Assembly (NCBI RefSeq): GCF_036250735.1
Contig: NZ_CP109430.1
Location: 9,176,001 to 9,240,000, forward strand
Reading direction: 5' to 3'
DNA length: 64,000 nt
From: Streptosporangium sp. NBC_01495
GTDB lineage: Bacteria > Actinomycetota > Actinomycetes > Streptosporangiales > Streptosporangiaceae
The notes beneath the pieces are model-generated. The model was given only the letters and a program-made list of their open reading frames with translations, did not search any database and had not been told where the DNA came from. Made by a program: the position numbers and the translations under genes. This document shows positions 27,676-48,062 of the stretch, piece after piece (within the stretch, counting starts at the first letter, position 1; every line of letters starts with the position of its first letter).

Positions 27676-27806
27676 CAGTCGGCCCTGCGTCCCGCTCACG
27701 TCGCGGCTCCGTCTTCCAGAACAGTCGGCCCCGCGTCCCGCTCACATCACGGCTCCATCCTCCAGAACAGCCAGTCCCGCGTCCCGCTCGCATCGCGGCT
27801 CGCGCC
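27676..27806. repeat. Imperfect 46-bp tandem repeat, almost three copies
   Basis: Units start at 27676, 27722 and 27768, each beginning CAG(T/C)C and containing CGCGTCCCGCTC; the third is cut short. The repeat lies in the 540-base non-coding region between the MarR gene and the leader peptide. I see no gene in 27486-28024. Confidence 0.8.
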
Positions 27807-32316: not shown

Positions 32317-34098
32317 TCAGCGCGCGGCGATGAGTGCCGCGGGGACGAGGTCGAAGACCAGTTGGGGGGCGACCGAGAAGGCGATCGCGACGATCGCCGC
32401 CACCGTGACCGCCACACTCGCGGGTATCCATCCGGCACCGCGGCCGCCCGTTCCCACGCTCCCGGTTTCAACGCCTACCGTCACGACACTCCCGGTCACG
32501 GCACCCCCGGTCGCAGCGCTTCCCGTCACGAGACCCCCGGTCACGGCACTTCCGGTCACGGCGCCACCCGCCGTGGCGCTCCCGATCGCGGCGCCCTCCG
32601 TCACCAGAACCGGCGTGAAGATTCGTACGACCCAGGCGACGTAGTAGTAGAGGCCCACGACCGTGTTGACCGCCATGACGGCGGCCAGCCAGCCGCCGCC
32701 TCCGCCGAGGAGCTCCCGGAACACCACGATCTTGGCGAAGAGCCCTGCCAGCCCCGGGGGCAGACCCGCCAGGCAGATCAGGGAGAAGGCCAGCACCAGC
32801 CCGGCAGCCGGGCTCCGGAACGCGAGGCCCCGGTAGTCGTCCAGCTCTCCCCCGCCCGACCGTCTCGACACCAGCGTGACCACGGCGAACGCCCCGAGGT
32901 TCATCGCCGCGTAGAAGACCAGGTAGGCGACCGAGGCGTTCATCGCCTCGCCGTTCCTGACGCCGAGGGGAGCGAGGATGTAGCCCGACTGGGCGACGGA
33001 CGACCAGGCGAGCAGCCGCACGGCGTGGCGCTGGCGCATGGCCAGGAGGTTGCCCACGGTCATGGTCAGCGCGGCGAGGATCGCGATCAGCGGGACCCAG
33101 GTGGCCCCCTGCCCGCCCAGGGCGACGACCAGGATGAGGATCAGCCCGGCGAATCCCGCCGCCTTGGAGATGACGGACAGCAGGGCCGCGACGGGGACGG
33201 GGGCACCCTGGTAGACGTCGCCCGCCCACGCGTGGAACGGCACCGCTGCGATCTTGAAGGCGAACCCGGCGAGGACCAGGACCACGGCCACGGTGACCAC
33301 GGCGGGCAGGTCGTAGCCGACCCGCAGCGCGGACTCGTAGGCACTGCCGTCGCCGAGGCCGCCCTGTCCGGGCCCGAGACCGGTGGCGGCGGGAACATCC
33401 TGCCGCAGGACGTGGGCGATGCGGTCGAGATAGACGGTGCCGGTCGTCCCGTACAGCAGGGAGACCCCGAAGAGCATCACCGCCGTGGAGACCACGGAGA
33501 CCAGGAAGAGCTTGACCGCCGCCTCGGAGCTCCGACCGTCGTAACGTCTGAGCGCGGTGAGCGCGAACACCGGCAGCGAGACGAGCTCCAGCGCGACCAC
33601 CAGCATGATCAGGTCACGGGAGGCGGGCAGGGCGACGGCACCCGCCAGCGTGCAGAGCAGCAGGAAGTACCACTCTCCGACGGGGATGTCCCCGGAGGAG
33701 AGTTCGGCCGCCGACAGCAGCACCACGACGATCCCGGCGAACAGCGCGAGCCCCGCGAAGACCAGCGTGAAGTCGTCGACCACGAACGAGCACGGCGCCA
33801 CGGCGGCCGTGGACGCCGTCGGCTCTGCGACCGGGGGGACGATGGCACCGATCACCGCGCGGGGGGAGCCGAGCAGCCCCTCCGGCACGCAGAAGGTTCT
33901 CAGCGGCTCTCCGGCGCGTACGGCCTGGGAGATCACCACCGCCAGGGCGCCGATCACCCCGGCCAGCGTGACCGCGCCGAGTGCCGTCCGGACGTACGGC
34001 CTGCGGGGCAGGAAGGCGTCCAGGAGCAGGACGAGCCCGGCGGTGAGGGCGAGGATCAGGGGCGGCGCGACCGCGTAATAGTCGATCGACTGGATCAC
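32317..34098 (-). CDS. nuoN: NADH-quinone oxidoreductase subunit N with low-complexity insert
   Basis: 593 residues from GTG 34098, which overlaps the nuoM stop (GTGA). It is an antiporter-like proton-pumping membrane subunit with about 14 helices; the key lysine-bearing helix FAFKIAAVPFHAWAGDVYQGAPVPVAALLSVISKAAG is intact. Near the C-terminus (about residues 501-556) lies a Gly/Thr/Ala/Val-rich repeat (units like VTGSxxTGG) between the helix VVGLYYYVAWVVRIF and the last helix IPASVAVTVAAIVAIAFSV. Normal NuoN is about 480-530 residues, so this insert accounts for the extra length. The frame is kept throughout. Confidence 0.93.
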   Translation of the reverse strand: MIQSIDYYAVAPPLILALTAGLVLLLDAFLPRRPYVRTALGAVTLAGVIGALAVVISQAVRAGEPLRTFCVPEGLLGSPRAVIGAIVPPVAEPTASTAAVAPCSFVVDDFTLVFAGLALFAGIVVVLLSAAELSSGDIPVGEWYFLLLCTLAGAVALPASRDLIMLVVALELVSLPVFALTALRRYDGRSSEAAVKLFLVSVVSTAVMLFGVSLLYGTTGTVYLDRIAHVLRQDVPAATGLGPGQGGLGDGSAYESALRVGYDLPAVVTVAVVLVLAGFAFKIAAVPFHAWAGDVYQGAPVPVAALLSVISKAAGFAGLILILVVALGGQGATWVPLIAILAALTMTVGNLLAMRQRHAVRLLAWSSVAQSGYILAPLGVRNGEAMNASVAYLVFYAAMNLGAFAVVTLVSRRSGGGELDDYRGLAFRSPAAGLVLAFSLICLAGLPPGLAGLFAKIVVFRELLGGGGGWLAAVMAVNTVVGLYYYVAWVVRIFTPVLVTEGAAIGSATAGGAVTGSAVTGGLVTGSAATGGAVTGSVVTVGVETGSVGTGGRGAGWIPASVAVTVAAIVAIAFSVAPQLVFDLVPAALIAAR

Positions 34099-35927
34099 GG
34101 CGCGCCCACCAGGGTCCGGACCACCGGGTCGGTGAGGAGGAGGAGTGCCTTGGGCCAGAGCCCGAACAGCAGGATCAGCGCGATCAACGGCACCCAGGCG
34201 GCCAGTTCGTAGCCCATGACGTCGGGCATGCGCGGCCTGCCCGCGCTCGTCGCCCCCGAGGTCACTCGCGAAGCCGTGCCCGTCGTCGTCGGCGACGTCT
34301 CCGAGGTCGCCGACGAAGGCGTTCCCGACTTCACCGTTGGCGTCGTCTCCGAAGGCGTTCCCGACGTCGCCGCCGGAGGGGAGGCGTCTCCTCCGCCGAC
34401 GGGCGCCTCGGAGAGGCTCTTCCTCTCGCCCGCCTCGGGAGCTCTCCCCTCGTAGTCGCCCTCCTCCCCGGTCGGGCCCGTGGAGGGGAGACCGCCCGCG
34501 GTGACCGCGGCCAGGACCGGGACGTGGACGGTCTCGGTGCTCCGGCCGTGGGTGACGCGGGAGAGCATGAGCAGGAAGTAGGCGGCGGTCAGCACGGTAC
34601 CGAGACCTCCGAGGGCCATGAAGACCAGGTAGAGGGGGCGGGACAGACCCGCGGCCGGTTCGAAGGCACCGAGGAGGGCCAGCATCTCGCCCCAGAAGCC
34701 CGCCAGTCCCGGCAGTCCGAGCGAGGCGACGCAGGCGAAGGTGAGCAGGGAGGCGAGGTGGGGAAGCCGGGTCAGCATGCCACCGCCGAGGGCAGGTATG
34801 TCGGAGGTGCCGTAGCGCTCCTTGATCGCTCCGGCGACGAAGAACAGCAGGGCGGTGATGAGGCCGTGGGCGATGTTGCCGAACAGGGCGCCGTTGACTC
34901 CGGCCGGGGTGAGCGTGGCGAAGCCCAGGAGCACGAAACCCATGTGGCCGACCGACGAGTAAGCGATCATCCTTTTGAGATCGCGCTGGGCGAGACAGGC
35001 CAGCGAGCCGTAGACGATGCCGATCACCGCGAAGGCCCCGAGCCAGGGGGCCATCGCGGCGGCGCCGTCGGGCAGGATCGGGATCGCGACGCGGACGAAG
35101 CCGTACGTGCCCATCTTGAGCAGCACGCCCGCCAGGAGCACCGAGCCGACGGTCGGCGCCTCGGTGTGGGCGTCGGGCAACCAGGTGTGCAGCGGCCACA
35201 TCGGGGTCTTGACCGCGAAACCGATGCCGACGGCCAGGAAGGCGAGGATCTGCACCGAGGGGGACATGCCCGTCCCCCGTGCCCGCGCGAGGGCGGTCAT
35301 GTCCAGGGTGCCGGTCTGCGACCAGATGAGCAGCAGGCCCAGCAGGAGGACCACCGAGCCGAGCAGGGTGTAGAGGATGAACTTGATCGCCGCCGCCCGG
35401 CGGGCACGCCCGCCCCAGATGGCGATCACGAAGTACATCGGGATGAGGACGACCTCGAAGAACACGAAGAACAGCAGCAGGTCGAGCGCGAGGAACGTGC
35501 CGATCATGCCCACTTCGAGGATGAGCAGGGTGAACACCAGCGCCCGTGGCCGGTTGCCGCCGGGCCGGGGCCCCCGCAACTGTCCGGGGCCGTCGGCACG
35601 GCCCCGGCACAGGTAGACGAAGCAGAGGAAGGTCAGCAGCGTGGTCAGCACGACCAGCGGCAGCGAGATCCCGTCCACGCCGAGGTGGAACCTGAGGTCG
35701 AGGCCGGGGATCCAGGCCAGATCGGTCACGAACTGCGGCCGGGCGGCGTTTCCGTAGTCGAACGCGGCGGCCAGCAGCACCGACAGCGCGAACGTGAGCC
35801 CGGAGACGACCAGGCCGTGCACCCTGAGCAGCCGCTTCCCGGCCGTGCCGTCCGCCCCGGACGGGGCGAGCAGCGCGGCGGCTCCGGCGAGCGGCACGCC
35901 GAGGAGCGCGATCAGCACCCAGCTCAT
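34095..35927 (-). CDS. nuoM: NADH-quinone oxidoreductase subunit M with a 92-residue insert
   Basis: 610 residues against the usual 500-530. The antiporter-like core is complete: FHLGVDGISLPLVVLTTLLTF, the pumping glutamate in FFEVVLIPMYFVI, and the lysine helix VKTPMWPLHTWLPDAHTEAP. From about residue 479 to 570 lies a Ser/Thr/Gly/Glu-rich stretch with imperfect repeats (SGTPSETTP, SGTPSSATSE, SGATSAG) just before the last membrane helix LAAWVPLIALILLFGLWP. The insert would hang as a disordered loop outside the bilayer. The start overlaps the Pro-rich frame (ATGA) and the stop overlaps nuoN. Confidence 0.94.
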   Translation of the reverse strand: MSWVLIALLGVPLAGAAALLAPSGADGTAGKRLLRVHGLVVSGLTFALSVLLAAAFDYGNAARPQFVTDLAWIPGLDLRFHLGVDGISLPLVVLTTLLTFLCFVYLCRGRADGPGQLRGPRPGGNRPRALVFTLLILEVGMIGTFLALDLLLFFVFFEVVLIPMYFVIAIWGGRARRAAAIKFILYTLLGSVVLLLGLLLIWSQTGTLDMTALARARGTGMSPSVQILAFLAVGIGFAVKTPMWPLHTWLPDAHTEAPTVGSVLLAGVLLKMGTYGFVRVAIPILPDGAAAMAPWLGAFAVIGIVYGSLACLAQRDLKRMIAYSSVGHMGFVLLGFATLTPAGVNGALFGNIAHGLITALLFFVAGAIKERYGTSDIPALGGGMLTRLPHLASLLTFACVASLGLPGLAGFWGEMLALLGAFEPAAGLSRPLYLVFMALGGLGTVLTAAYFLLMLSRVTHGRSTETVHVPVLAAVTAGGLPSTGPTGEEGDYEGRAPEAGERKSLSEAPVGGGDASPPAATSGTPSETTPTVKSGTPSSATSETSPTTTGTASRVTSGATSAGRPRMPDVMGYELAAWVPLIALILLFGLWPKALLLLTDPVVRTLVGAP

Positions 35928-36367
35928 GGTGTGGCCACCTCACAGAAGTCGGGCCCCGGGTTCGCCCCTGTACCCGGCCTTGGTTTCAGCCTCGCGTCCG
36001 GCCTTGTGTCCGGCCTCGCCTTCAACCTTGTGTCCAGCCTTGGCTTCAGCCTCGCGTTCGGCCTTGTGTCCGGTGCCGGGCTCGGCCCCGTGATCGGTGC
36101 TGGGGCCGGCATTGTGGTCGGCGTTAAGTTCGGTGTCGGGTTCGGCCTCGTGGTCGGTGTCGGGACCGGCCCCGGATTCGGTCTCGTGGTCGGTGCTGGG
36201 GCCGGCATTGTGGTCGGCGTTAAGTTCGGTGTCGGGTTCGGCCTCGTGGTCGGTGTCGGGACCGGCCCCGGATTCGGTCTCGTGGTCGGTGTCGCGACCG
36301 GCCCCGGGTTCGGCCTCGTGGTCGGCCCCGGGTTCGGTTGCGGGTTCGGTCGTGGAGGGGAGGTCAA
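35924..36367 (-). CDS. Pro/Thr/Asn-rich repeat protein coupled between nuoL and nuoM
   Basis: 147 residues made almost entirely of TTRPNPGP, TPNLTPTT and APAPTTRPNP repeats, then a more basic part (DTRPNARLKPRL repeats). TTG 36367 overlaps the preceding 25-residue gene (TTGA), and its stop overlaps the nuoM start (ATGA). It contains a perfect 96-bp tandem duplication. No domain is recognised; such sequence should form an extended proline-rich chain. It could be a genuine fused-in spacer gene, or repeat DNA that keeps an open frame to maintain coupling from nuoL to nuoM. No NuoM homologue needs it. Confidence 0.5.
   Translation of the reverse strand: MTSPPRPNPQPNPGPTTRPNPGPVATPTTRPNPGPVPTPTTRPNPTPNLTPTTMPAPAPTTRPNPGPVPTPTTRPNPTPNLTPTTMPAPAPITGPSPAPDTRPNARLKPRLDTRLKARPDTRPDARLKPRPGTGANPGPDFCEVATP
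36094..36285. repeat. Perfect tandem duplication of a 96-bp unit
   Basis: 36094-36189 and 36190-36285 are identical, each starting TCGGTGCTGGGGCCGG and ending TCGGTCTCGTGG, and a partial third unit follows. The unit itself is built of shorter GGTCGGTG/TTCGG(T/C) elements. Its length is a multiple of three, so the Pro-rich frame stays open. Identity over 96 bases means the event is recent. Confidence 0.92.
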
Positions 36368-36441
36368 CGGCGCGTCACCGCCAGACGGATGAGGAGCAGC
36401 ACGACGAGGGCCACGACACCCCAGAACAGCAGAGAGATCAT
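36364..36441 (-). CDS. 25-residue single-helix membrane peptide after nuoL
   Basis: ATG 36441 overlaps the nuoL stop (ATGA), and its TGA overlaps the TTG of the Pro-rich frame. The sequence is [20 protein letters not shown] followed by AVTRR, a perfect single transmembrane helix with a positive C-terminal end. Coupling on both sides and the clean helix suggest it is translated. A small accessory subunit or assembly peptide of the membrane arm is a reasonable guess, but nothing comparable is known to me in complex I. Confidence 0.55.
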   Translation of the reverse strand: MISLLFWGVVALVVLLLIRLAVTRR

Positions 36442-38495
36442 CTCAGAATCACCGCCCCGGCCGCGATCAGGAGGACTCCGGCCAGCAGGCCGGTGATGTA
36501 GAGCTGGGCGTTGCCGTTCTGCACCAGGCGGACCAGGCCCGCCAGGCCAAGGGTCGCCTGACCCGAGCCGCGCACGGCACCGTCCACCACGCGGCTGTCG
36601 GTGCGGGCGACGAGACTCGCGAGGAGCAGCACGGGCCGGACGAAAAGCCCGGTGTAGAGGGAGTCGACGTAGAAGGCGCGCTCGCAGGGGGCCCTGAGGG
36701 GGCCGAGCAGGCGGGCCGGGTCGTCCAGGGGGCCGGAGCGCCACACGGCGTAGACCACCCCCGCGCCCAGCAGTGCCACCGCGAGACTGAGGGCGGCGGT
36801 GCCCCAGTGGACGTCGCCGACACGGGCGAAGCCGAGGAGCAGGGCGGGGACGGCCAGAACGAGAATAGGCCAGCGCATGGTGGCCGGAGCCTCGTGAACG
36901 ACGGTGTGGAGGGCGTGAGACGCACCGGACGCGGGCCCGGACTCGGACGCGGGCCGGGGGGCACGCTGCCCGAAGAAGGTGCGCAGCCACGCGCGGGTGG
37001 CGTAGGCGCCGGTCACCGCGACCGTGGCGAGCGCGCAGCCGTAGAGCAGCAGGGCCGCGGTGCCGGTCAGCGGCCCCGAGGACAGGGAACGCTCGATGGC
37101 CACCAGCACCTCGTCCTTGCTGAAGAAACCGCTGGCCGGGGGCAGGCCCATCAGTGCGGCGAAGCCGATCGTCATCGCGGCGAAGGTGACGGGAAGCTGC
37201 CTTCTGAGGCCTCCCATGGTGCTCATCAGGTTGGAGCCGACCGCGTGGATCACCGCTCCGGCGCAGAGGAAGAGAAGTGCCTTGAAAGCGCCGTGAGTGA
37301 TCAGGTGGAAGATCGCGGCGCTCTGGGACCCGGCGGCCAGGGCACCGGCCATGTAGGCGAGCTGGCTGATCGTGGAGTAGGCGAGGACGCGTTTGAGGTC
37401 GTCCTGGGCCAGGGCGGCGAGGGCCGCGCCGAGCATGCCGAGGGCGGCCAGGACCGCGAGGACGTCCAGGGTGGGAGGGGCACCGAGAAAGGCCGGGTAG
37501 AGCCGGGCGACGACGAAGATGCCCGCGGCGACCATGGTGGCCGCGTGGATGAGGGCGCTGATCGGTGTCGGTCCGGCCATCGCGTCGGGGAGCCAGACGT
37601 GCAGCGGCACCTGGGCGCTCTTTCCCGCCACCCCGGCCAGCAGCAGCATGGTGGCGGCGATGAGCGTGCCGGACGACATCTGGGGAACCCCGGCGATGAC
37701 GTCGGCGATTTTGAAGCTGCCCGCCGCCGTCCCGAGGACGAAGATGCCGAACAGGAAGCCGACATCGCCGATCCGGGTGACGAGGAACGCCTTGATCGCC
37801 GCTCGCGAGTTGGCCCTGTCTTCCCACCAGTGCCCGACCAGCAGGTAGGAGCACAGGCCCATGATCTCCCAGCCCACGTAGAGGACCATGAGGTCGGCCG
37901 CGTAGACGACCAGCAGCATGGCGCTGGTGAACAGGCTGATGAAGGAGCTGTAGGACGGGTAGCGCCGGTCGCCGCGCATGTAGCCGACGGAGTAGACCTG
38001 CACGGCCAGCGCGACCACGCCGACCAGCACGGCGATCGACGCGGCGAGGCCGTCGACCAGCAGCCCGACCGAGATCGGCACCGAGCCCGTCTCGATGACG
38101 GTGAACGTCGCGGTGACACCGTCGATCGCTCCCTGAGCCCCTGGCCCGACCGGCGCGGACGGCTCGGTTACGTCCCCGCCGGCCACCCAGGTGGCGTAGG
38201 CCAGCCAGATCGCCAGGGCCGTGGACATCGCGGTGGGCACCACGGCGATCCAGGCGGCCCTGCGGTTGGCACCGGTGCTGGCGTCAACCTCGGAGGTGCC
38301 GGCCTCGGAGGTGCCGGCCTCGGAGGTGCCGGCCTCGGAGGTGCCGGCCTCGGAGGTGCCGGCCTCGGAGGTGATGCCGTCGCCGGTCTCCGGGGGCGGC
38401 ACGCTGCGCGGACGCCGGGGAAAGCGGGAACCGAGAAGCCCGGTGGCCGCCGAGAGGAAGGGCAGCAGGATCACGAGCGAGGCGATAGTGATCAT
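36438..38495 (-). CDS. nuoL: NADH-quinone oxidoreductase subunit L with N-terminal TSEAG repeat
   Basis: 685 residues. The antiporter-like core is intact: [54 protein letters not shown] with the pumping Glu, the lysine helix [38 protein letters not shown], and the [17 protein letters not shown] histidine/lysine helix. Residues 41-71 are an inserted repeat of the unit TSEAG (six copies, 15-bp DNA unit) between the first two helices, where other NuoL proteins have a short loop. A second disordered stretch [11 protein letters not shown] lies near residue 525. The start overlaps nuoK by 4 bases. Confidence 0.95.
38288..38377. repeat. Six tandem copies of a 15-bp unit in nuoL
   Basis: Units starting CCTCGGAGGTG begin at 38288, 38303, 38318, 38333, 38348 and 38363; the first five are identical and the last diverges in its final bases. 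On the coding strand each adds Thr-Ser-Glu-Ala-Gly in frame. The near identity indicates recent slippage. Confidence 0.95.
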
Positions 38496-38977
38496 GTCGC
38501 GTCACCCGGTCTGGCGGCTGCCCGGTCGGTGTGAGTGGGGTTGGTGTGGGCCGGATCGGGGTCACGGGAACCGGCGGAGGCCGGATCGGTGTAGGCCGGG
38601 TCGGTGGTGGCCGGGTCGGCGTCGCGGAAACCTGTGTGGGCCGGGTCGATGTCACGGGAGCCGGTGGTGGCGGGGTCGGACAGGGAACGGAGGCGGTCGA
38701 GGTCGACGGTCCGGCGGTTGCGGTAGAGCGCGAGGATGATCGCGAGACCGAGGCCGACCTCGGCGGCGGCGATCACGATGACGAACAGCGTGAGGACCTG
38801 CCCGCCGTGCAGCCGGTCGCGCAACCACACGTCGAAGGCGACCAGGTTGAGGTTGACGGCGTTGAGCATGAGCTCGACGGACATCAGCACGAGGATCGTG
38901 TTGCGGCGGGCGAGCACCCCGTACACGCCGATGGAGAACAGCAGCGCCGAGACGACCGCGGGGTAGACGATGTGCAC
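38492..38977 (-). CDS. nuoK: NADH-quinone oxidoreductase subunit K with repeated C-terminal tail
   Basis: 161 residues against a normal 100. The first 100 residues are a standard NuoK: three helices, with the conserved glutamates Glu35 ([12 protein letters not shown]) and Glu73 ([13 protein letters not shown]). From about residue 101 a tail of [23 protein letters not shown] units follows, rich in Asp, Pro, Thr and Ala and strongly acidic. The tail follows the last helix, so it would lie on one side of the membrane as disordered chain. The start is one base after the nuoJ stop and its stop overlaps nuoL. Confidence 0.93.
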
Positions 38978-38978
38978 G

Positions 38979-39515
38979 TCAGTCCCTCCCGCGGATGTCC
39001 GTGCGGGACAGGACGATGGCGCCGATCAGAGCCGCGAGCAACAGGACCGAGAGCGCCTCGAACGGGAGCACCCAGTTGCGGAAGATGCTCGCACCGAGCT
39101 CACTGGCCGAGCCGGCACCGGGCTCAAGCGGGACGTAGGCCATGCGGAAGCCGTCGACGACGACGGTGACCAGCACGGCCGCGGTGGCGATCGCCACGAT
39201 CGCCGCGGTCGGACGGTTCGGGCTGTCGAGGTCGGCGCTCCTGCCGATCGGCGCGCGGGTGAGCATGATGCCGAACAGGAGCAGGACCACGATCGCGCCG
39301 ACGTAGATCAGCACCTGGACCCAGGCGACGAACTCGGCGGTGAGCACCAGATAGCACCCGGCCAGCGCGCCGAAGCAGACGACCAGCCACAGGGCTGCGT
39401 GGACGAGCTGCCTGGTGGTCACGACGAGCAGCGCCGACCCGACGGCCACCACGCCCAGCAGAAGGAAGACGATCTCCTGCCCGGTCGGCGACAGGTAGGA
39501 CGGCGCCTCGGTCAC
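38979..39515 (-). CDS. nuoJ: NADH-quinone oxidoreductase subunit J
   Basis: 178 residues with five membrane helices (for example [65 protein letters not shown]). The helix with the conserved Tyr and Gly ([15 protein letters not shown]) that forms the pi-bulge near the E-channel is present. This is one of the few subunits in the cluster without a clear low-complexity expansion; only a short Gly/Ser/Ala/Glu loop ([11 protein letters not shown]) lies before the last helix. The start overlaps the nuoI stop by 4 bases (ATGA). Confidence 0.95.
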
Positions 39516-40717
39516 GTCTCCTCCTCGGGCTCTCCACTCGGATCCGTGGGAGGAGTCTGCCCCGGTGCGGCCGCCGTCGGAGGCGCGTCGCCCCTGCCTG
39601 TGGATAACTTCTCGACGGACGATCCACCTGTGGACGGAGCGTCCTTCTTCGGAAGGGCGCCCGGCGGCCGGATGGCCCGGACGCTCGCGTGCCCCGCCGA
39701 GGTGCCCGGTCTGGACGATCTACCCGGCGGTGGACCGCGCCGCGCGGGTGGCGCGTCGGGGGTGCCGGGAGCGGGTGCGGCAGGCGGGGAAGACTGCGGA
39801 GAGGAGGGGCCGGACGGCGAAGACGGGGTGCCGGACGCGGAGGCCGCGTGGTCCGGAGCGTCCGGAGCGGCGATGGGGCCGGACGGGAGACCGGATCCGG
39901 AGGGGGAATCGGCCGTGGAGGCCGGGGCATCGGACGGGGAAGCCGACGCGCCGGGTGAGGAGGCTCCGGGGCCCGGTCCGGCGATGGGACTGGAGGCGGA
40001 GGCGGCCCCGGAAACGGCACCGACCCCGGGAGCGGCTCCAAGAGCGGGAGCGGCCCCAGGAACGGACCCGGAAGTGACCCCGGACCCGGACCCGGACCCG
40101 GATGCGGATTCGGACCCGGAAGCGGATTCGGACCCGGAAGCGGAAGCGGACCCGGAAGTGACCCCGGACCCGGATGCGGACCCGGAAGCGGGTCCGGATG
40201 GGGCGGGACGGGGGCGAACCGGGCGGGAGACGGCCGCGAGTTCCTTCGGCGGATCGGCGTTGGGCTCGTGGGCCGGAGGTGGCGGGACGGTCTGCGCCCA
40301 GGCCGCCAGCTTGTCCTTCTCATGGAGAAGGTTACGGATGTCGCCTTCGGCGTACTCGAACTCCGGAGACCAGAACAGCGCGTCGAAGGGGCAGACCTCA
40401 ATGCAGATCCCGCAGTACATGCACAGGGAGAAGTCGATCGCGAAGCGGTCGAGCATGTTGCGGGCACGGGGTCGGCCGCCCTCCGGGGCCGGGAGGGTCT
40501 CCTTGTGGGAGTCGATGTAGATGCACCAGTCGGGGCACTCGCGGGCACAGAGCATGCACACCGTGCAGTTCTCCTCGACCAGCGCGATCACCCCCCTGCT
40601 CCTCGGGGGCAACTCCGGCCGGACTTCGGGGTACTGCTGAGTCACCGACCTGCTCAGCATGTGGCGAAGGGTGACGGAAAGTCCCTTCGCCAGCCCCACT
40701 CCTGGTATCCGTGCCAC
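39512..40717 (-). CDS. nuoI: NADH-quinone oxidoreductase subunit I with a 235-residue low-complexity tail
   Basis: 401 residues; standard NuoI is 160-210. The ferredoxin core (residues 1-150) binds two 4Fe-4S clusters through [12 protein letters not shown] (Cys51, 54, 57, 61) and [12 protein letters not shown] (Cys99, 102, 105, 109). After about residue 165 the protein becomes almost wholly Ser, Gly, Ala and Pro (repeats such as [22 protein letters not shown]), then Pro-rich. The tail contains repeated GGACCCGG/GGATTCGG DNA and stays in frame to the stop. GTG 40717 is the start. It is the first gene of the nuoI-N half-operon, divergent from the kinase. Confidence 0.95.
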
Positions 40718-40805
40718 AACTCAACATCATGGCGCACAGCGGGGCGCTCGGGAATGCGTAGGCCCAGGAGACCGTCACGGCAGGGGAATCAACCAGGGGA
40801 TCGAG

Positions 40806-40827
40806 TTATCCACAGAAGTTATCCACA
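40806..40827. promoter_or_regulatory. Two DnaA-box sequences in the nuoI-kinase divergent region
   Basis: TTATCCACA occurs at 40806-40814 and again at 40819-40827, 13 bp apart and in the same direction. A third copy in the opposite direction lies at 39599-39607 inside nuoI. Close pairs of perfect boxes are rare by chance in DNA this GC-rich. They could bind DnaA to regulate the divergent genes; the number is too small for a chromosomal origin. Confidence 0.55.
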
Positions 40828-40914
40828 GACTGTGTGTTCGATAACCGCCCACCAACCACCGGCTCACCATCGAAGCGACTGCGGAGATCCTGAAAAAATC
40901 GTATTGTTCGCCAC

Positions 40915-42348
40915 ATGTCCCACCAGTACGGGCCGGCCTGGCAGTCGCAACCACCGGCGCGATCCAACACGGCGTGGAGCGTCGTGTGGGCGCTGGTACC
41001 CCTGCTGACCTGCGGTATCGGGACGCCGTTCGTCATCGGCCACGCCGCGCGCCGGCTGCGGAGCCCGTTGCTGGCCATCGCCGCCGTCCTCTACGGCCTC
41101 GGCATCGGCATCTTCATGGTCGCCGCGACGATCTACGGGAGTTCCGACAACATCCCTGTCGTGCTGGACACCATCGGGACGATCGGCCTGTTCGGCAGCT
41201 GGATCGGCGGGCTGGGCCACGCGCTGATCCTCAGGGGGTCGGTCTTCCGGCAGGGGCCGTCCCGGGAATTCCACCCCGGGCCGCCGCCCGGGTACGGCCA
41301 CGTCCAGGGCCCGCCCCAGATGTCGTCGTACCAGACGGGCCCCACGGGGGCCTCGATGACGCACCCGCCCGCGCAACGGCCGCAGCCGCGTCTCCCGGAG
41401 CCCCCGCACCACGGCGGGTACCAGCCCCAGCTCCGCCCTGAGCAGTACGCGCCGCCCCAGTACACCCAGGGCCACTTTCCGCAGGGCCGGCCCGCCCACG
41501 CTTCGCAGGGCCCGCACACCCCCTTCACGCAGGGCCGGCCCGCCCACCCCTCGCGAAGCCAGAGCACCCACACCCCCCAGGGCTGGCTGGGGCCGTACCG
41601 GCTGATCGGCAGCCTGGGGAAGGGCGGCCAGGGAACGGTTCACCTCGCGCTGAACCCGCAGGGGCAAAAGGTCGCGATCAAGGTGCTGCACGAGCACTTC
41701 AACGGCAACCAGGTGGTCAGGGAGCGGTTCCTGCGGGAGGTGGAGGCGACGCGCAGGGTGGCGACGTTCTCCACGGCACGGGTGCTCGACGTGAACATCA
41801 ACGAGGACCAGGCGTACGTCGTCAGCGAGTACGTGGAGGGCGACTCCCTGGAGCAGCTGGTCCGCGACAGGGGCCCGCGCGACGAGGACGGCCTGACCCG
41901 GCTGGCCCTGGCCACGGCGGGTGCGCTGGCCGCGATCCACCGGGCCGGTGTGGTGCACCGGGACTTCAAACCGGCCAACGTGCTGATCGGCGCCGACGGC
42001 CCCCGCGTCATCGACTTCGGCATCGCCCGAGCCCTCGACCAGGTCACCTCGACGTCGGGCAACATCATGGGCACCCCCGCCTACATGTCGCCCGAGCAGC
42101 TCGCGGGCAGGACGATCGGCCCGGAGACCGACGTGTTCAGCTGGGCCGCGACCATGATCTTCGCCGCCTCGGGAAAGGTGGCCTTCGGGGAGGACACCAT
42201 CCCCGCCATCCTGAACCGGGTGATCAACCACCATCCGGACCTGACGATCCTGCCCCAGTCGCTGCGCCCGCTGGCCGCCGCCTGCCTGGACAAGGAGCCG
42301 GGCAACCGGCCCACGGCCGCCGACATCATGCTGCGGATCGTGCAGTGA
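40915..42348 (+). CDS. Membrane-anchored Ser/Thr protein kinase, inverted topology
   Basis: 477 residues. Unlike PknB-type kinases, the membrane part is N-terminal: helices VVWALVPLLTCGIGTPFVIG, LLAIAAVLYGLGIGIFMVAATIYG and TIGTIGLFGSWIGGLGHALIL (residues 20-105). A Gln/Pro/His-rich linker (110-220) leads to the kinase: Gly-loop LGKGGQGTVHLA, VAIKVL lysine, catalytic VVHRDFKPANV, DFG in VIDFGIARAL, and APE-equivalent YMSPEQLAG. It phosphorylates Ser/Thr of unknown targets. It is transcribed against the nuo genes on both sides, splitting nuoABCH from nuoIJKLMN, and shares its upstream region with nuoI. Confidence 0.93.
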   Translation: MSHQYGPAWQSQPPARSNTAWSVVWALVPLLTCGIGTPFVIGHAARRLRSPLLAIAAVLYGLGIGIFMVAATIYGSSDNIPVVLDTIGTIGLFGSWIGGLGHALILRGSVFRQGPSREFHPGPPPGYGHVQGPPQMSSYQTGPTGASMTHPPAQRPQPRLPEPPHHGGYQPQLRPEQYAPPQYTQGHFPQGRPAHASQGPHTPFTQGRPAHPSRSQSTHTPQGWLGPYRLIGSLGKGGQGTVHLALNPQGQKVAIKVLHEHFNGNQVVRERFLREVEATRRVATFSTARVLDVNINEDQAYVVSEYVEGDSLEQLVRDRGPRDEDGLTRLALATAGALAAIHRAGVVHRDFKPANVLIGADGPRVIDFGIARALDQVTSTSGNIMGTPAYMSPEQLAGRTIGPETDVFSWAATMIFAASGKVAFGEDTIPAILNRVINHHPDLTILPQSLRPLAAACLDKEPGNRPTAADIMLRIVQ

Positions 42349-42454
42349 AAAACCGACCATCGGCGCGGGGAAGGCCGTACCAAGAAGTCCGCACCGAGCA
42401 GGCCGGGCAAGCCCTGGGGAGGCCCCGCCGGGCGAATCCGGCAGAGCTCCGGCT

Positions 42455-43393
42455 CTAGGGAACCGCGTCCTTCGCCCGCGCCGTCAGGTCCAGGTACTCG
42501 TCGCGGGTCAGCGCGCGAACCGTGAGCCCCAGGCCGTTCCCGGTGGCGAAGCGCTCGACCTCCACGGCGTCCCAGCGTCCCGGCAGATGGAACAGCTCCC
42601 CGCCCACCAGCAGGCCGGTCACCCCGGACTCCGCCGAGTACAGCATCAGCTCGGACGCGTCCAGCTCGCGGGTCCTGCGCGCGGTCTCCAGCAGCAGGCG
42701 GCCGTGGACGACCACCAGGCGGCAGTGCGGCTGGCCCTCACGCCTGAGCACGCGTCCCTGAGCGGTCTGGTTGCGGGACCTGCGACGGCCGACCCCGACC
42801 ACGACGACGGCCCCGGCGACCGTCAGCGCGGCCAGCACCAGGGCGGCGATCCCGAGCGGGCCCATCCCCCGGGTGACGTCGGCGCGGGTCTCGGTCAGGT
42901 TGAGGAGCACGAGCGCCACGAAGACCGCCCCGTAGGCGAGCACCGCCCACATGAGCACGTACAGCAGCTGCTCGCGCCACCACACCTTCGGTGAGCTCAG
43001 CGGTGGCCTGAGGCTTCGCGCGCCGGGCACGCGCAGGCGCGGCAGGGGCGCGGGCGCCCGGCGCCAGGTCACCGCGCGCCACCTCGGCGACCTGCGGGCG
43101 AGGGCGACCCTGGCCAGCTGCGGCGTCTCGAACGCCCGGAACTCGAACTCCAGCCCGTTGTCCGCGGCGAACGTCTTCACCGCCCTCTTCGAGCGGGACC
43201 CCGGAGCCTCCAGCATGACCAGGCCGGACTCGTCGAGCACCGCCAGGCCGTATCTCGTCCTCCCCCTGCCGGGATAGCCGAAGATCAGCAACGTGCTCGC
43301 CCGGCCCTCCCCGGCGAGCGGCAGCCGCACCGGCGGATGTTCCGGCACATCGACGACCAGTTCATCCTTTTCCACGGCAAGCGCGAGGGTCAT
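42455..43393 (-). CDS. Hypothetical two-helix membrane protein
   Basis: 312 residues. Residues 1-130 form a soluble N-terminal domain, followed by two helices (LLYVLMWAVLAYGAVFVALVLL and GIAALVLAALTVAGAVVVVGVG, about 142-200) and a C-terminal cytoplasmic domain that repeats features of the first (LFHLPGRWDAVEVERFATGNGLGLTVRALT resembles AVKTFAADNGLEFEFRAFETP). I do not recognise the family. A GGACGG ribosome site precedes ATG 43393. It follows nuoH by 114 bases in the same direction and converges on the kinase gene, so the kinase and this gene form the block that separates the two nuo halves. Confidence 0.7.
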   Translation of the reverse strand: MTLALAVEKDELVVDVPEHPPVRLPLAGEGRASTLLIFGYPGRGRTRYGLAVLDESGLVMLEAPGSRSKRAVKTFAADNGLEFEFRAFETPQLARVALARRSPRWRAVTWRRAPAPLPRLRVPGARSLRPPLSSPKVWWREQLLYVLMWAVLAYGAVFVALVLLNLTETRADVTRGMGPLGIAALVLAALTVAGAVVVVGVGRRRSRNQTAQGRVLRREGQPHCRLVVVHGRLLLETARRTRELDASELMLYSAESGVTGLLVGGELFHLPGRWDAVEVERFATGNGLGLTVRALTRDEYLDLTARAKDAVP

Positions 43394-43507
43394 GCGTTCC
43401 GTCCTTGGCAGGTGGTGTCACAGAGTGTATTTACTCCCTGCCCTGCGTGGGCACTTCGAACGTCAGATCGCCCCGTACGACGGCCGGGACGGCGCAAAAC
43501 AGCCGGG

Positions 43508-44470
43508 TCACCCCACGGCGATACCGACGATTCCCGTCAGCGCGAGCTGGACCAGTGCCAGCGGCACCAGGACGACCCAGGCGAGCTTCTGCAGCTGGTC
43601 CTCGCGGAGGCGGGGATAGCTCACCCGGAGCCAGATGATCACGAAGACCAGCAGGAAGACCTTGAGGAGCATCCACACCGGCCCCGGCAGGAAGGGTCCG
43701 TGCCAGCCGCCGAGGAACAGCACGCTGGTGAGCGCGGACACCACGATGATCCCGGCGTACTCGGCCAGCATGAACAGGGCGAACCTCATGCCGGTGTACT
43801 CGGTCATCGGGCCCATGATGAGCTCGGAGTCGGCGATCGGCATGTCGAACGGCGGGCGGCGGAGCTCGGCGAGCCCGGCGACGAAGAAGACCACCCCGCC
43901 GATCGCCTGCCAGGGCAGCCACCACCACTGCCAGGCCTCCACGATGCCCGGCAGGGAGAGCGTGCCCGCCGCCATCGCGACGCTGGAGGCCGCGAGGACC
44001 AGCGGCAGCTCGTACGCCATGAGCTGGGCCGCCGAGCGCATCCCGCCCAGGACGGAGTACTTGTTGCCCGAGGACCACCCGGCCATGATCGAGCCGAGCA
44101 CGCCGACCCCCATCACGGCGAGGACGAAGAACAGCCCGGCGTCCAGGTCGACCCCGACCAGCCCGGGTCCGACCGGGATGACGACCATCACCAGGAGGTA
44201 GGGGATCAGTGCCACGCCGGGGGCCAGGGTGAAGACCCGGCGGTCCGCGGCGGCCGGGATCACCTGCTCCTTCTGCATGAACTTGACCCCGTCGGCGATC
44301 AGCTGGGCCCAGCCGTGGAAGCCCCCGGCGTACATGGGACCGAGGCGCGCCTGCATGTGCGCCATGACCTTGTGCTCCATCTGCCCGGCGACCAGCGGCA
44401 GCACCAGGAAGGCCGCGACGATCACGACGAGCCGTACCGCGACGTCGAGCACCTCGGCGATCACGGGCAC
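43508..44470 (-). CDS. nuoH: NADH-quinone oxidoreductase subunit H
   Basis: 320 residues from GTG 44470, normal length. This membrane subunit forms the quinone-access channel with NuoB and NuoD. Hallmarks seen are the first helix VRLVVIVAAFLVLPLVAGQMEHKVMAHMQARLGP, where the motif is usually ERK-x-x-x-x-QxRxGP, then QLIADGVKFMQKE, and ELRRPPFDMPIADSELIMGPMTEYTGMRFALFMLAEY with the conserved acidic loop. The first-helix Glu-Arg-Lys is here Glu-His-Lys (MEHKVMAHMQ). It follows nuoC directly at the place where nuoD would be expected; nuoD is absent. Confidence 0.95.
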   Translation of the reverse strand: MPVIAEVLDVAVRLVVIVAAFLVLPLVAGQMEHKVMAHMQARLGPMYAGGFHGWAQLIADGVKFMQKEQVIPAAADRRVFTLAPGVALIPYLLVMVVIPVGPGLVGVDLDAGLFFVLAVMGVGVLGSIMAGWSSGNKYSVLGGMRSAAQLMAYELPLVLAASSVAMAAGTLSLPGIVEAWQWWWLPWQAIGGVVFFVAGLAELRRPPFDMPIADSELIMGPMTEYTGMRFALFMLAEYAGIIVVSALTSVLFLGGWHGPFLPGPVWMLLKVFLLVFVIIWLRVSYPRLREDQLQKLAWVVLVPLALVQLALTGIVGIAVG

Positions 44471-44548
44471 CTCCGGTTCCTCGGGGGAACTCCCCGGCCA
44501 CCACGGATCCCACGGGCCTCATGGGCGCGAGACGGCCTTCGGGGTGTC

Positions 44549-45298
44549 TCAGGTGTCACGCTCGCGCCCCCAGTCGGCGGGCACCCCCGGCGGGAGCGTC
44601 TTACGGCGGCTCGGCGAGCCGTGGCCGGACTCCCCGGGCTCCTTCGCCCCCGGCCAGGCCTTGGCGACCCGGGCGGCCAGCACGAAGTCCTTGCGCAGCG
44701 GGAAGCCCTCGAAGCCGTCGGGGAGCAGCAGCGGCACCAGGTTCGGATGGCCCTCGAAGACGACGCCGAACATCTCGAAGGTCTCGCGCTCGTGCCAGTC
44801 GGCTCCGCGGAAGACGCCGACCGCGCTGGGCAGCCGGGGGTCGGCGCGCGAGACCCGGGTGCGCAGCAGCAGGTGGGCGTGCGAGACGGGGGCGAAGAGG
44901 TGGGCGACGACCGCGAACGCCTCCGGCGGCTCGTCCACCGCGGTCAGCCAGTCGAAGAACTCGTAGCCTCCGGCCCTGGCGGACTCCAGCAGGCCGAGCC
45001 AGTCGCCGGCATCCACGTCGACCGTGGTCTGGCCGAAGGACTCCGACACCCGGGCGCCCTCGCCGTACGCGAAGCCGTGCGCGAAGCCGTGCGTGGAACC
45101 GGACGCGGAGCCGGGCACGGAGCCGGACGCGGAGCCGGACGCGGGTTCGGGCACGGAGCCGGACGTGAGGTCGGGCGTGGATCCAGAGGTGGAACCAGCG
45201 GAGCCAGAGGCGGAATCAGCGGAGCCAGAGGTGGAACCCGACGCGGAACCGGGCGTGGAGTGGTGCGGGGGTTCGGGCAGGTCAGGCATAGCGGTCAC
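44549..45298 (-). CDS. nuoC: NADH-quinone oxidoreductase subunit C with low-complexity N-terminus
   Basis: 249 residues. The conserved 30-kDa domain occupies residues 90-230 and carries the signature [23 protein letters not shown]...[14 protein letters not shown]. Residues 12-80 are a Ser/Gly/Ala/Pro/Thr stretch with units like GSASGS, GSTSGS and [18 protein letters not shown], absent from other NuoC proteins. GTG 45298 overlaps nuoB by 17 bases; ATG 45289 is an alternative within the same overlap, so the expanded segment is translated in either case. Only 78 bases separate it from nuoH, so no nuoD is present. Confidence 0.93.
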
Positions 45299-45788
45299 CC
45301 AGGTTCTCCGCGGCGATCTTCTCCTGGAGCATCATGATGCCGTGGAGCAGCGCCTCGGGGCGGGGAGGGCAGCCGGGGACGTAGACGTCGACCGGGATGA
45401 TCTGGTCGACTCCCTTGGTCACGCAGTAGGAGTCCCAGTACGGGCCGCCGGAGTTGGAGCAGGCGCCGAAGGAGATCACGTACTTCGGGTCGGGCATCTG
45501 CTCGTAGAGCCGCTTGACCGCGGGTGCCATCTTGTCGGTCACCGTGCCTGAGACGATCATCAGATCCGCCTGCCGGGGACCGTTGGCGAACGGGATGACC
45601 CCGAACCTGATGAAGTCGTGCCTGCTCATCGAGGTCGCGATGAACTCGATCGCGCAGCAGGCCAGGCCGAAGTTGAACACCCACAGCGAGTAGCGGCGCC
45701 CCCAGTTGAGGATGAGGCGCATGGGTTTCGGGGCCAGACGCGAGACTGGCCCCACGGTGGGCATCGGGAGATCCGCCATGGCACGCAT
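45282..45788 (-). CDS. nuoB: NADH-quinone oxidoreductase subunit B
   Basis: 168 residues. This subunit carries the terminal N2 4Fe-4S cluster that reduces quinone. The cluster ligands are visible: adjacent Cys-Cys in [15 protein letters not shown], Cys in [15 protein letters not shown], and Cys in [20 protein letters not shown] 45779 ([10 protein letters not shown]) may be the true start three codons after 45788. It is not expanded by repeats. It lies 45 bases after nuoA and overlaps nuoC. Confidence 0.95.
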
Positions 45789-45833
45789 TCTCCTTCAGGG
45801 TCGATGCTCGCGCTCGTCCGGCCTCGCGGGCCC

Positions 45834-46205
45834 TCAGGTCCAGGTGAGCACGCGCTTGCGCCAGGCGTAAAGGATGCCGAGCGCGATGAAGCCGAGGAAG
45901 ACGAACATCTCGGCCAGGGTGGTCGTCCCGAAGCCGGGCGCGGCGAAGATCGTCGCCCAGGGGAACAGGAAGACCGCGTCCACCGCGAAGACCACATACA
46001 GGTAGGTGAACACGTAGTAGCGGATCTGGGACTGCGCCCAGCCGTCGCCGACCGGGTCGACGCCGCACTCGTAGGTGAGCAGTTTCTCCGGGGTGGGGCG
46101 GTTGGGCCGGAGTCCCCGGTTGACCAGCATTGCCCCGGCGACGATCAGCAGGCCGATCGCGAACAGCGCGAGGACCACCACATAAGAGCCGAAATATCCG
46201 CTCAT
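45834..46205 (-). CDS. nuoA: NADH-quinone oxidoreductase subunit A
   Basis: 123 residues from ATG 46205, which has a GAGGGAGAGAGG ribosome site; the frame is open further upstream but that part encodes only the translated upstream repeats. Three membrane helices are seen, with the conserved loop YECGVDPVGDGWAQSQIRYYVFTYLYVVFAVDAVFLFPWA between helices 1 and 2, including the redox-sensitive Cys. It is the first gene of the nuoABCH half of the cluster. Repeated DNA at 46255-46346 lies immediately upstream, in or near its promoter. Confidence 0.95.
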   Translation of the reverse strand: MSGYFGSYVVVLALFAIGLLIVAGAMLVNRGLRPNRPTPEKLLTYECGVDPVGDGWAQSQIRYYVFTYLYVVFAVDAVFLFPWATIFAAPGFGTTTLAEMFVFLGFIALGILYAWRKRVLTWT

Positions 46206-46254
46206 GGCCTCTCTCCCTCGGGACCGCCACACGAGTCTTCCCCGGGACCGCCGC

Positions 46255-46346
46255 ACGGACACTCCAGGACCCACCGCACGGACGCTCCGAAGAACGCCGA
46301 ACGGACACTCCAGGACCCACCGCACGGACGCTCCGAAGAACGCCGA
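46255..46346. repeat. Tandem 46-bp repeat upstream of nuoA
   Basis: Two near-identical 46-base units start at 46255 and 46301 (ACGGACACTCCAGGACCCAC...), flanked by degenerate further units from about 46225 to 46440 built on CCGCACGGAC and GGACGG. It occupies the region where the nuoA promoter or 5' leader should be. Spacing of 46 bp is not a multiple of three, unlike the repeats inside genes. Confidence 0.88.
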
Positions 46347-46583
46347 ACGGACGGCTCCGGGACCCGCCGGACGGACAGCTCCGGAAAACGCCGGACGCGC
46401 TCGGAGAACCTGCGCCGGACGGACGGTTCCGGACCTGCCGTACGGGGGCTCTCCGCCCTACCTATAGCAGTATCCGCCCTTCCCGTCACGCGGGGAAACC
46501 ACCGGCCGCGGAACGGCTAAAGCCTCCGTCCACTTCACATCAAGTCAGGGCAAACACGCCATAAGCCCATATAACGTTATTTT

Positions 46584-48062
46584 ATGCCTAAACTGCGATT
46601 CGCCGGAGGAATCGCTTGGATGGCCGCAATGCTGGCAGGTTGCGGCATAGCCACCGCCTCCCCTCACGTGAAGCTCCCCGTCCCCTCGGAGCCAACGCTG
46701 ATCAACTACGTGGATCCCTCCATGGTTCAGGGCCTGAGCACGAGAACTCTGACCGCGAAGGAAACCACGGGCCGGCGCGTGCACGCCACCTACCCCGCCG
46801 TCGCCGAGGCCCCCCTCCTCACCGAGAAGCTCCGCAGGACGATGACCGGGAGTCTCGACCGTTTCACCCGGCACAAGGCCCCCTCCGATGCCCTGTCCAA
46901 CCCCGAGTTCAACGTGGACTGGCAGCTCGCCGCCGCCTCCCCCGAGGTCCTGGGGGTGCGGCTGCGCATCGGCCAGTCCATGGGCTCCGGCTGGAGCGAG
47001 TCCCGGACCACCGTCTGGTACGACCGGGTGAGCCGGCGCGCCCTGGACTCCCCCGACCTGCTCAGGGACGGCGCGGCGCTGGCCACGCTGACCGAGCTCG
47101 CCAGGGGGGAACTGGCCCTGCGGGGGCCGCTGGTGAATCCCAACGCGCTCAGGCCGGACCCGGCGATGTTCGACTCCATCGGTTTCAACCCGCGCGGCGA
47201 CCTCGTCGTGGAGTTCGACGACGAGCAGGTGGGCCTGGGCGTCGCCGGCCGGGTGGCGGTCGCCGTACCGTCCGCGACCGCGGCACCGCTGCTGTCGGCG
47301 ACCGGGCTGCGGGCGCGGCAGGCGGCCATGGGGACCGCGACCCTCACCTCCGAGGAGGACATGCTCGCGGCGAGCAGGGACAGGCCCGCGGCGCGCAGTT
47401 CCGGGGCGGGCAGCGTGGACTGCGCGAAGGTCAAGTGCGTGGCGCTGACCTACGAGGACGGGCCGGGCCCCGAGACCGGGCGACTGCTCGACATCCTCGG
47501 CGCGTACAAGGCGAGGGCGACCTTCTTCGTTCTCGGTTCCAACGCCTCCGCGCGTCCCGAACTGCTCAGGCGGATGCGCGACGAGGGCCACCTGGTGGCC
47601 AACCACAGCTGGTCCCACCGCGACCTCACCGTGCTTCCCCCCACCATGCTCGCCGACCAGCTCACCCGCGCGCAGTACGCGATCACCCATGCGATCGGCC
47701 AGGTCCCCACGCTGATGCGCCCGCCGTACGGCGTGACCGACGTGCAGGTGGCCTCCATCGCGCGCCGGCTGGGCATGTCCGTGGTGCGCTGGAACGTGGA
47801 CGCCAAGGACGAGCACGACTCCGACCCCCGGGCGATCGCCCGTCGGACCGTCGCCCAGGTCAGGCCCGGATCGATCGTCCTCATGCGCGACTTCCGCGGC
47901 GCGACCGTGGACGCGGCCCCCGAGATCCTGCGTGGGCTCGTCGCCAAGGGTTATACCTTTGTCACCGTCCCGGAACTGTACGGCCCGCGCGCGATGGAAC
48001 CGGGCCGGACTTACGACTCCGGAACCGTGTCGGCCGCACTGGAAAAGCAGTCCGTGTCATAA
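46584..48062 (+). CDS. Lipoprotein-type polysaccharide deacetylase-like protein with altered active site
   Basis: 492 residues from ATG 46584; TATAAC at 46570-46575 suggests a leaderless message. The N-terminus MPKLRFAGGIAWMAAMLAGC is a lipoprotein signal with lipobox LAGC. Residues 30-255 form an unassigned domain, and 280-470 a NodB domain: motif 1 TYEDGPGP (Glu291 replaces the catalytic Asp of TFDDGP; metal Asp292 remains), motif 2 NHSWSHRDL, motif 3 RPPYG, motif 4 NVDAKDEHD, motif 5 VLMRDF (Arg where the catalytic His of LLHD lies). Two general acid/base residues are thus changed. Its divergent neighbour is nuoA. Confidence 0.88.
   Translation: MPKLRFAGGIAWMAAMLAGCGIATASPHVKLPVPSEPTLINYVDPSMVQGLSTRTLTAKETTGRRVHATYPAVAEAPLLTEKLRRTMTGSLDRFTRHKAPSDALSNPEFNVDWQLAAASPEVLGVRLRIGQSMGSGWSESRTTVWYDRVSRRALDSPDLLRDGAALATLTELARGELALRGPLVNPNALRPDPAMFDSIGFNPRGDLVVEFDDEQVGLGVAGRVAVAVPSATAAPLLSATGLRARQAAMGTATLTSEEDMLAASRDRPAARSSGAGSVDCAKVKCVALTYEDGPGPETGRLLDILGAYKARATFFVLGSNASARPELLRRMRDEGHLVANHSWSHRDLTVLPPTMLADQLTRAQYAITHAIGQVPTLMRPPYGVTDVQVASIARRLGMSVVRWNVDAKDEHDSDPRAIARRTVAQVRPGSIVLMRDFRGATVDAAPEILRGLVAKGYTFVTVPELYGPRAMEPGRTYDSGTVSAALEKQSVS

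Follow-up and report, generated by a model that had tools for sequence, protein, structure and literature searches.

A conserved basic peptide in the variable NuoI tail of a second complex I in Streptosporangium

The second complex I locus and its variable segments

The 64,000-nucleotide stretch analysed here (the window; Streptosporangium sp. NBC_01495, contig NZ_CP109430.1, positions 9,176,001 to 9,240,000) contains a cluster of ten nuo genes at 32.3-46.2 kb. Six of its products carry low-complexity segments, and one of these segments, the C-terminal tail of NuoI, contains a conserved basic peptide. By Pfam, the ten proteins are NuoA, B, C, H, I, J, K, L, M and N. The cluster encodes the second complex I that filamentous actinomycetes carry, apparently without the NADH module, as known from Streptomyces; the organisation with nuoD2 apart was already known there and is extended here to Streptosporangium and its relatives. 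In the same genome (11.1 Mb, two contigs), the primary nuo genes lie roughly 120 kb from the second cluster. NuoE, F and G are not among the ten cluster proteins by Pfam, a search that covered the cluster and not the whole genome, and the primary genes could supply them.

All ten genes are on the minus strand, assigned by Pfam and open reading frames (ORFs): nuoA2 (45834-46205, from the likely ATG), nuoB2 (45282-45788), nuoC2 (44549-45298), nuoH2 (43508-44470), nuoI2 (39512-40717), nuoJ2 (38979-39515), nuoK2 (38492-38977), nuoL2 (36438-38495), nuoM2 (34095-35927) and nuoN2 (32317-34098). Two genes separate nuoH2 from nuoI2, namely a Ser/Thr protein kinase gene divergent from nuoI2 (40915-42348, plus strand; Pkinase E 5.5e-42) and an ORF with no Pfam match. 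NuoI2 consists of a core (residues 1-160), 94-98% identical to 13 sister genomes, and a tail (residues 161-401). Cysteines 51, 54, 57 and 61 and cysteines 99, 102, 105 and 109, which we take to be the 4Fe-4S ligands, are invariant in 14 genus sequences, and both ligand sets are intact.

The nuoD gene is missing from the cluster. An orphan NuoD2 of 394 residues is encoded about 1.1 Mb away on the same contig (G000:C1:10354807-10355988), and the three PF00346 hits in the genome are the primary NuoD and the two halves of this orphan. Across 200 genomes of the family, 123 have both NuoD2 and NuoI2, 74 have neither, three have NuoD2 alone and none NuoI2 alone; the three NuoD2-only genomes (G008, G043 and G102) are assemblies of 550, 960 and 500 contigs. 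Presence thresholds were set by us in a gap of the scores (NuoI2 E at most 1.9e-40, the next in the 1e-17 range; NuoD2 at most 1.5e-115, the next 5.7e-71). From this co-occurrence we infer that NuoD2 belongs to the second complex. No NuoD was found around NuoI in the flanks (up to 10 kb) of 80 named loci, with a query frame that included about 200 residues of read-through before NuoD.

The low-complexity segments of NuoC, NuoI, NuoK, NuoL, NuoM and NuoN all read as the initial annotation had described them, and the DNA repeat units differ from one another. The nuoL repeat is 15 bp in 5.7 fully identical (100%) copies (38288-38373); the units are 18 bp in nuoI (40079-40186), 12/36 bp in nuoC (45062-45165), 15/45 bp in nuoN (32478-32564) and 96 bp in the nuoL-nuoM spacer (36082-36337). 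The 46-bp repeats reported before nuoA are present at 46249-46397, with no further match in this genome. Another 46-bp tandem repeat with a different consensus (2.7 copies) occurs at 27676-27801.

Tandem repeats cover 9.8% of the cluster versus a mean of 2.8% over 18 stretches of 20 kb from the same genome. Two of these stretches contain 14.1 kb above 9.83% and a third reaches 9.35%, hence the genome has further repeat-rich places. In each of 14 sister genomes, tandem repeats are more abundant around the second cluster (stretches of 12.6-19.5 kb) than around the primary nuo genes (19 kb).

The segments were compared in alignments of genus orthologues and named loci (78-89 sequences per subunit; L082 and L083 were left out as apparent duplicates of G006 and G002, and the L041 stretch, from G008, carries no nuoI). 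They fall between conserved core columns. Some variable NuoN loops would be periplasmic, hence we do not claim that all variable sites face the cytoplasm. The initial annotation knew of no other complex I with this pattern; in fact, orthologous clusters vary at the same sites. Relatives have variable segments, mostly unconserved, in the NuoI tail, the NuoK tail and the NuoM and NuoN loops before the last helix. The NuoK tail (residues 101-161) has 10-131 residues in 13 sisters. The NuoM loop has 102 residues (34221-34526) and 28-111 in 13 other genus members, and the repeat-filled NuoN loop has 62 (32428-32613) and 15-118 in 12 others; both coordinate pairs were computed by hand from the protein. 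Further sites varying within the genus are NuoL near residues 512-533, NuoM near 111 and two more NuoN loops.

The remaining two segments are rarer. The NuoL loop after the first helix (38244-38435), which holds the 15-bp array, has 64 residues in the window versus 26-35 in all 13 other genus loci; the array expansion is thus found only in the window among 14 genus loci. The long N-terminal repeat extension of NuoC (residues ~2-81; 45056-45295) occurs only in the window, L045 and perhaps L040, and may not be part of the protein, should translation begin at a GTG close to the core (around residue 82). NuoB, H and J are near-constant in length within the genus, start choice aside, and NuoA differs only at its start, in line with the initial description of A, B, H and J as not clearly expanded. 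The refuting outcome named in the initial annotation, inserts shared by the genus with their sequence conserved, thus came true by half: inserts recur across the genus at the NuoI, K, M and N sites, and the NuoI motif described below is their only conserved sequence.

The nuoL-nuoM spacer (35928-36437, minus strand), filled with 24/36/96-bp repeats, is 510 bp long in the window and 88-355 bp in 13 sisters. The Pro/Thr-rich frame initially proposed here is most likely spacer and not a gene, since nuoL and nuoM overlap by four bases at this place in 18 named loci, one of them (L119) named Streptosporangium; all these distances refer to the nearest starts. An ORF of 25 amino acids with a single-helix look (36364-36441, minus strand) overlaps the nuoL stop (ATGA) and is perhaps a remnant of the nuoL/nuoM overlap. 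By eye, L035, L036 and L084 also look helix-like here, and the remaining genus loci do so less clearly or not at all; we therefore rejected the idea that a conserved micro-protein of one helix generally follows nuoL.

Other groups vary on other subunits. In Actinomadura relatives (L122-L136) NuoB extends 95-249 residues beyond residue 168 (12 sequences), and in Streptomyces NuoJ extends 13-93 residues beyond residue 178 (17 sequences), both measured from the nearest start codons. The Actinomadura-group NuoB tail has a ATVLRRPLQPPP-like start and a variable acidic linker, and mostly ends like SIIPGLxDD. As judged from sequence, it resembles the linker-plus-motif design of the NuoI tail, here on another subunit.

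The primary complex I was compared in nine subunits (A, B, C, H, I, K, L, M and N) from 15 genomes. It has a single internal site that varies by at least ten residues, in NuoM (0-22 residues); two other flagged sites, in NuoC and NuoI, are at the start. Lengths are 176-193 residues for NuoI, 98 for NuoK and 183 for NuoB.

The conserved motif of the NuoI tail

The NuoI tail (39515-40237, minus strand) has 241 residues in the window and 97-455 in 13 other complete genus orthologues. It is rich in P, A, S, G and T and shows little conservation save for its two ends and one basic motif, which lies inside this filler in all 14 complete genus sequences. In the window the motif occupies residues 346-357 (39647-39682, minus strand), as seen by alignment, pattern and profile, and is proposed here as a docking peptide. 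The window 12-mer is matched at 12 of 12 positions in each of the 13 other complete genus tails, a comparison made without any pattern; the median for 12-mers of the window tail is 5.5.

A search with the pattern R-x-[IV]-[RK]-P-P-G found 72 copies in 48 loci of Streptosporangium, Planomonospora, Nonomuraea, Microbispora, Herbidospora, Microtetraspora, Planotetraspora and other genera. R, P, P and G are fixed by the pattern, which misses altered copies; outside it, L follows two places after PPG in 71 of 72 copies and the next position is P in 59. The consensus is RxIRPPGxLP, with one to four copies per NuoI. The motif is present in 47 of 85 complete NuoI2 proteins, with tails of 27-455 residues: one copy in 27, two in 17, three in two and four in one. 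Seven of the 92 NuoI2 sequences were left out of this count, being cut by contig ends (L094, L099, L113, L115 and L139) or containing unknown residues (L133 and L151), and the 38 motif-negative proteins include L114, which ends at residue 159 though grouped with Nonomuraea (possibly a frame error).

Identical 12-mers occur in 20 copies with 17 DNA spellings, which argues for selection on the peptide and not on the DNA. The NuoI motif thus fits a short peptide conserved, at the protein level, above a fast-evolving flank. A profile built from 54 of the 72 copies finds the motif in all 16 genus genomes (E 3e-13 to 7e-10), in G008 within a short open frame on another contig. Across the family it has hits in 86 of 200 genomes, at least one of them (in G201) off NuoI. 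NuoI matches 41 sequences of solved structures; the ones named there as subunits of complex I or NDH have 140-239 residues, so none of these carries such a tail.

The 25-mers with the motif have a mean net charge of +3.7 (71 of 72 positive), and the remaining tail sequence has -1.1 per 25 residues. When 25-mers are drawn at random from whole tails, motif and all, 12% of them have +3.7 or higher. A basic motif in a mildly acidic linker is as expected for an acidic partner. The tail is rich in P, A, G, S, R and T with few hydrophobic residues, a composition from which we infer that it is probably disordered. The NuoC, K, L, M and N segments yielded no conserved peptide in the orthologue alignments. 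They look like tolerated filler, as do the spacers. Among the titles listed, covering open-licence papers only, none dealt with NuoI tails or low-complexity segments of complex I, which is no proof of absence.

Possible roles of the tail

We propose that the NuoI tail is a flexible tether presenting a docking peptide at the subunit where electrons enter, in a complex I that probably runs on ferredoxin, and we give this reading an even chance. Electrons would enter at NuoI directly, probably from ferredoxin reduced by a neighbouring 2-oxoacid:ferredoxin oxidoreductase, and go via NuoB to menaquinone, driving proton pumping. The peptide may dock a partner near the electron-entry point, either the electron donor or the peripheral arm of the complex itself. 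The filler could drift, duplicate and slip freely because only the peptide and a rough reach would matter. The tethering use suggested in the initial annotation thus survives for NuoI, by virtue of an internal conserved peptide it had not reported, and not for the other segments.

The candidate source of the donor is korA (48436-50289, plus strand), assigned by family match and neighbourhood as the alpha subunit of a 2-oxoacid:acceptor oxidoreductase and called korA here, followed by korB for the thiamine-diphosphate subunit (50282-51352, plus strand; family match). The fetched flank contains korA in 71 of 92 loci, among them all 14 genus loci; the other 21 may pool cut-off stretches with truly korA-less ones. 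Between nuoA and korA is a gene (46584-48062, plus strand) whose product is presumably polysaccharide deacetylase-like, with a relative in all 14 genus loci.

A bolder form of the proposal, which we regard as speculative and rather unlikely, is that in Streptosporangium and its relatives a long disordered NuoI arm fishes the donor (ferredoxin or the 2-oxoacid:ferredoxin oxidoreductase itself) through its one to four RxIRPPGxLP copies, possibly under kinase control, and that Actinomadura relatives would have a comparable arm on NuoB, with a variable linker mostly ending in IIPGLxDD.

Several observations weigh against a donor-docking tether. Gene neighbourhood is the one line of evidence that points to the candidate donor. 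Outside NuoI, the 16 genus genomes contain no profile hit better than E 0.005, and the best hits at that level and weaker include enzymes we take to be NeuB-like. The AlphaFold model of NuoI is poor throughout, core included (mean predicted local distance difference test score 43), and neither shows nor refutes disorder. A motif search in solved structures gave no match. By pattern, the NuoI proteins fetched from the Actinomadura group, Micromonospora and Streptomyces contain no copy of the motif; these relatives possess the same complex, whose basic reaction can therefore do without it. Finally, pN and pS (nonsynonymous and synonymous differences) are each higher in the second complex in all 14 genome pairs. 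By identity, six of the nine subunits compared (A, B, C, K, L and N) are less conserved in the second complex than in the primary one, and H, I and M are about equal or more conserved.

A natural deletion also bears on the proposal. At the locus of Streptosporangium G015 (6.2 Mb; L195, G015:C22:18000-37900), korA is followed by the deacetylase-like gene, nuoB, nuoC, the kinase gene, a nuoI that retains its tail and motif, and a nuoJ fragment with htpX directly behind it; nuoA, H and K-N have no credible match there. In the whole genome, NuoH finds its best match in a protein of the primary type and NuoL in one of 40% identity; for A, K, M and N the search covered the locus only. NuoD2 is retained elsewhere. 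The B, C core, I core and D2 genes have no internal stops, and their pN/pS against the window is 0.24, 0.36, 0.12 and 0.21, respectively. These values rank highest of ten genomes for B and I and of seven for D2, as does korA (0.21) of ten; C and HtpX are within range. Either G015 has a soluble module with a life of its own or the remnant is in slow decay. A genome that keeps B, C, D2 and I with its motif after losing membrane-arm genes at the locus suggests that the motif may serve something besides the pump, a further point against our proposal.

The same genome speaks for docking within the complex, which we hold to be possible though clearly less probable than the proposal as a whole. Here the motif would bind the peripheral arm, for example NuoD2 or the groove used by the NuoC C-terminus, and serve assembly or stability, not donor recruitment. 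A PPGxP segment near the C-terminus of NuoC2, present in 86 of 86 orthologues, resembles the NuoI motif and reads RRRVRPPGVP in most Actinomadura-group loci. However, this likeness is short, its PPG core lies within P/G-rich sequence, and the NuoI motif is missing from related loci.

It is unlikely that all segments, the NuoI tail included, are functionless slippage expansions, neutral or slightly harmful, in a little-used complex. This would agree with the repeat-filled spacers and region before nuoA, the widely differing segment lengths among species, the lack of a conserved peptide in NuoC, K, L, M and N, the lower conservation of six subunits and the loss of much of the cluster in G015. 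It is contradicted for the motif, which is unchanged in all 13 other genus tails while its DNA spelling varies; moreover, every complete genus NuoI tail has at least 97 residues. Slippage alone also leaves unexplained that the primary complex in these genomes has almost no such segments. Core pN/pS, computed for 14 genome pairs on concatenated B, H, I, K, L, M and N cores where found, is 0.20-0.33 in the second complex and 0.17-0.29 in the primary one, higher in the second in nine pairs. With such similar values in both complexes of the same genomes, general relaxed selection on the cluster is not supported. The alternative offered initially, relaxed selection with active slippage, hence lacks support for the cluster as a whole and fits the spacers and the segments of NuoC, K, L, M and N. 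The second-complex cores show somewhat faster evolution under similar constraint, while the segments drift.

Phosphorylation of a Ser/Thr-rich tail by the kinase encoded between nuoH2 and nuoI2, as an on/off switch, seems improbable. Besides the window itself, a relative of the kinase is present at this place in 34 of 87 other loci holding both genes, namely in 30 of 43 scored with the motif and 4 of 44 scored without; a NuoI that ran into a contig end counted as motif-free in this scoring, including that of L113, which does carry a copy. Three of the four kinase-positive, motif-negative loci are affected by incomplete sequence, L094 and L099 (NuoI cut by contig end) and L133 (unknown residues), and the fourth is the truncated L114. 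However, 13 motif-bearing loci that hold both genes have no kinase there, the motif core has no conserved Ser/Thr across genera, and the association tracks a single clade, where it may be a matter of history. That the repeats are assembly errors, a caution raised in the initial annotation and by nothing else, is hardly credible, as same-site segments with open frames occur in separately assembled genomes of this and other genera.

Comparison with known systems

According to PMC11238625, it is still open which donor feeds complex I enzymes that have no NADH module. A short, conserved and genetically removable peptide on the entry subunit offers a direct handle on it: the motif could be used as bait for partners, and removed without touching the enzyme core. 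The approach taken here also offers a way of separating filler from function in repeat-rich bacterial proteins.

Within the same genomes, the primary complex I has homologous core subunits, but is nearly segment-free in the nine subunits compared (J and D-G excluded). We take the S. coelicolor genes SCO4599-SCO4608 to encode the second complex. The abundance of these NADH dehydrogenase subunits is reported to differ between strains (PMC9739823). As outlined in PMC3765725, the Streptomyces complex comprises nuoA2, B2, D2 and H2-N2 and, like the window cluster, is without N-module genes and has nuoD2 separate. Unlike in the window, nuoH and nuoI of the Streptomyces loci are 2-5 bp apart where both are held, leaving no kinase in between, and the NuoI tails are usually shorter (13-159 residues beyond residue 172, 16 sequences) and have no RxIRPPG motif. 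Several of them (L145 and others) share HADEQARAAExPTRPxGxSKQQTDQP; the mean best match to its 10-mer HADEQARAAE is 6 of 10 in 16 sequences.

The complex I considered in PMC11238625 is likewise without NuoEFG, with a cytoplasmic hydrogenase or reduced ferredoxin proposed there as donor; in contrast to the window, its NuoD is encoded within one operon. Cyanobacterial NDH-1L is also complex I-like and devoid of an NADH module, and, by the account in PMC7021789, is fed by ferredoxin at NdhI, the counterpart of NuoI, through a positively charged pocket. Unlike the tail proposed here, docking to NDH-1L relies on folded subunits, NdhV and NdhO, with NdhS as the foothold. By analogy, a basic tethered peptide at NuoI could serve the same end as the NDH-1L pocket by other means.

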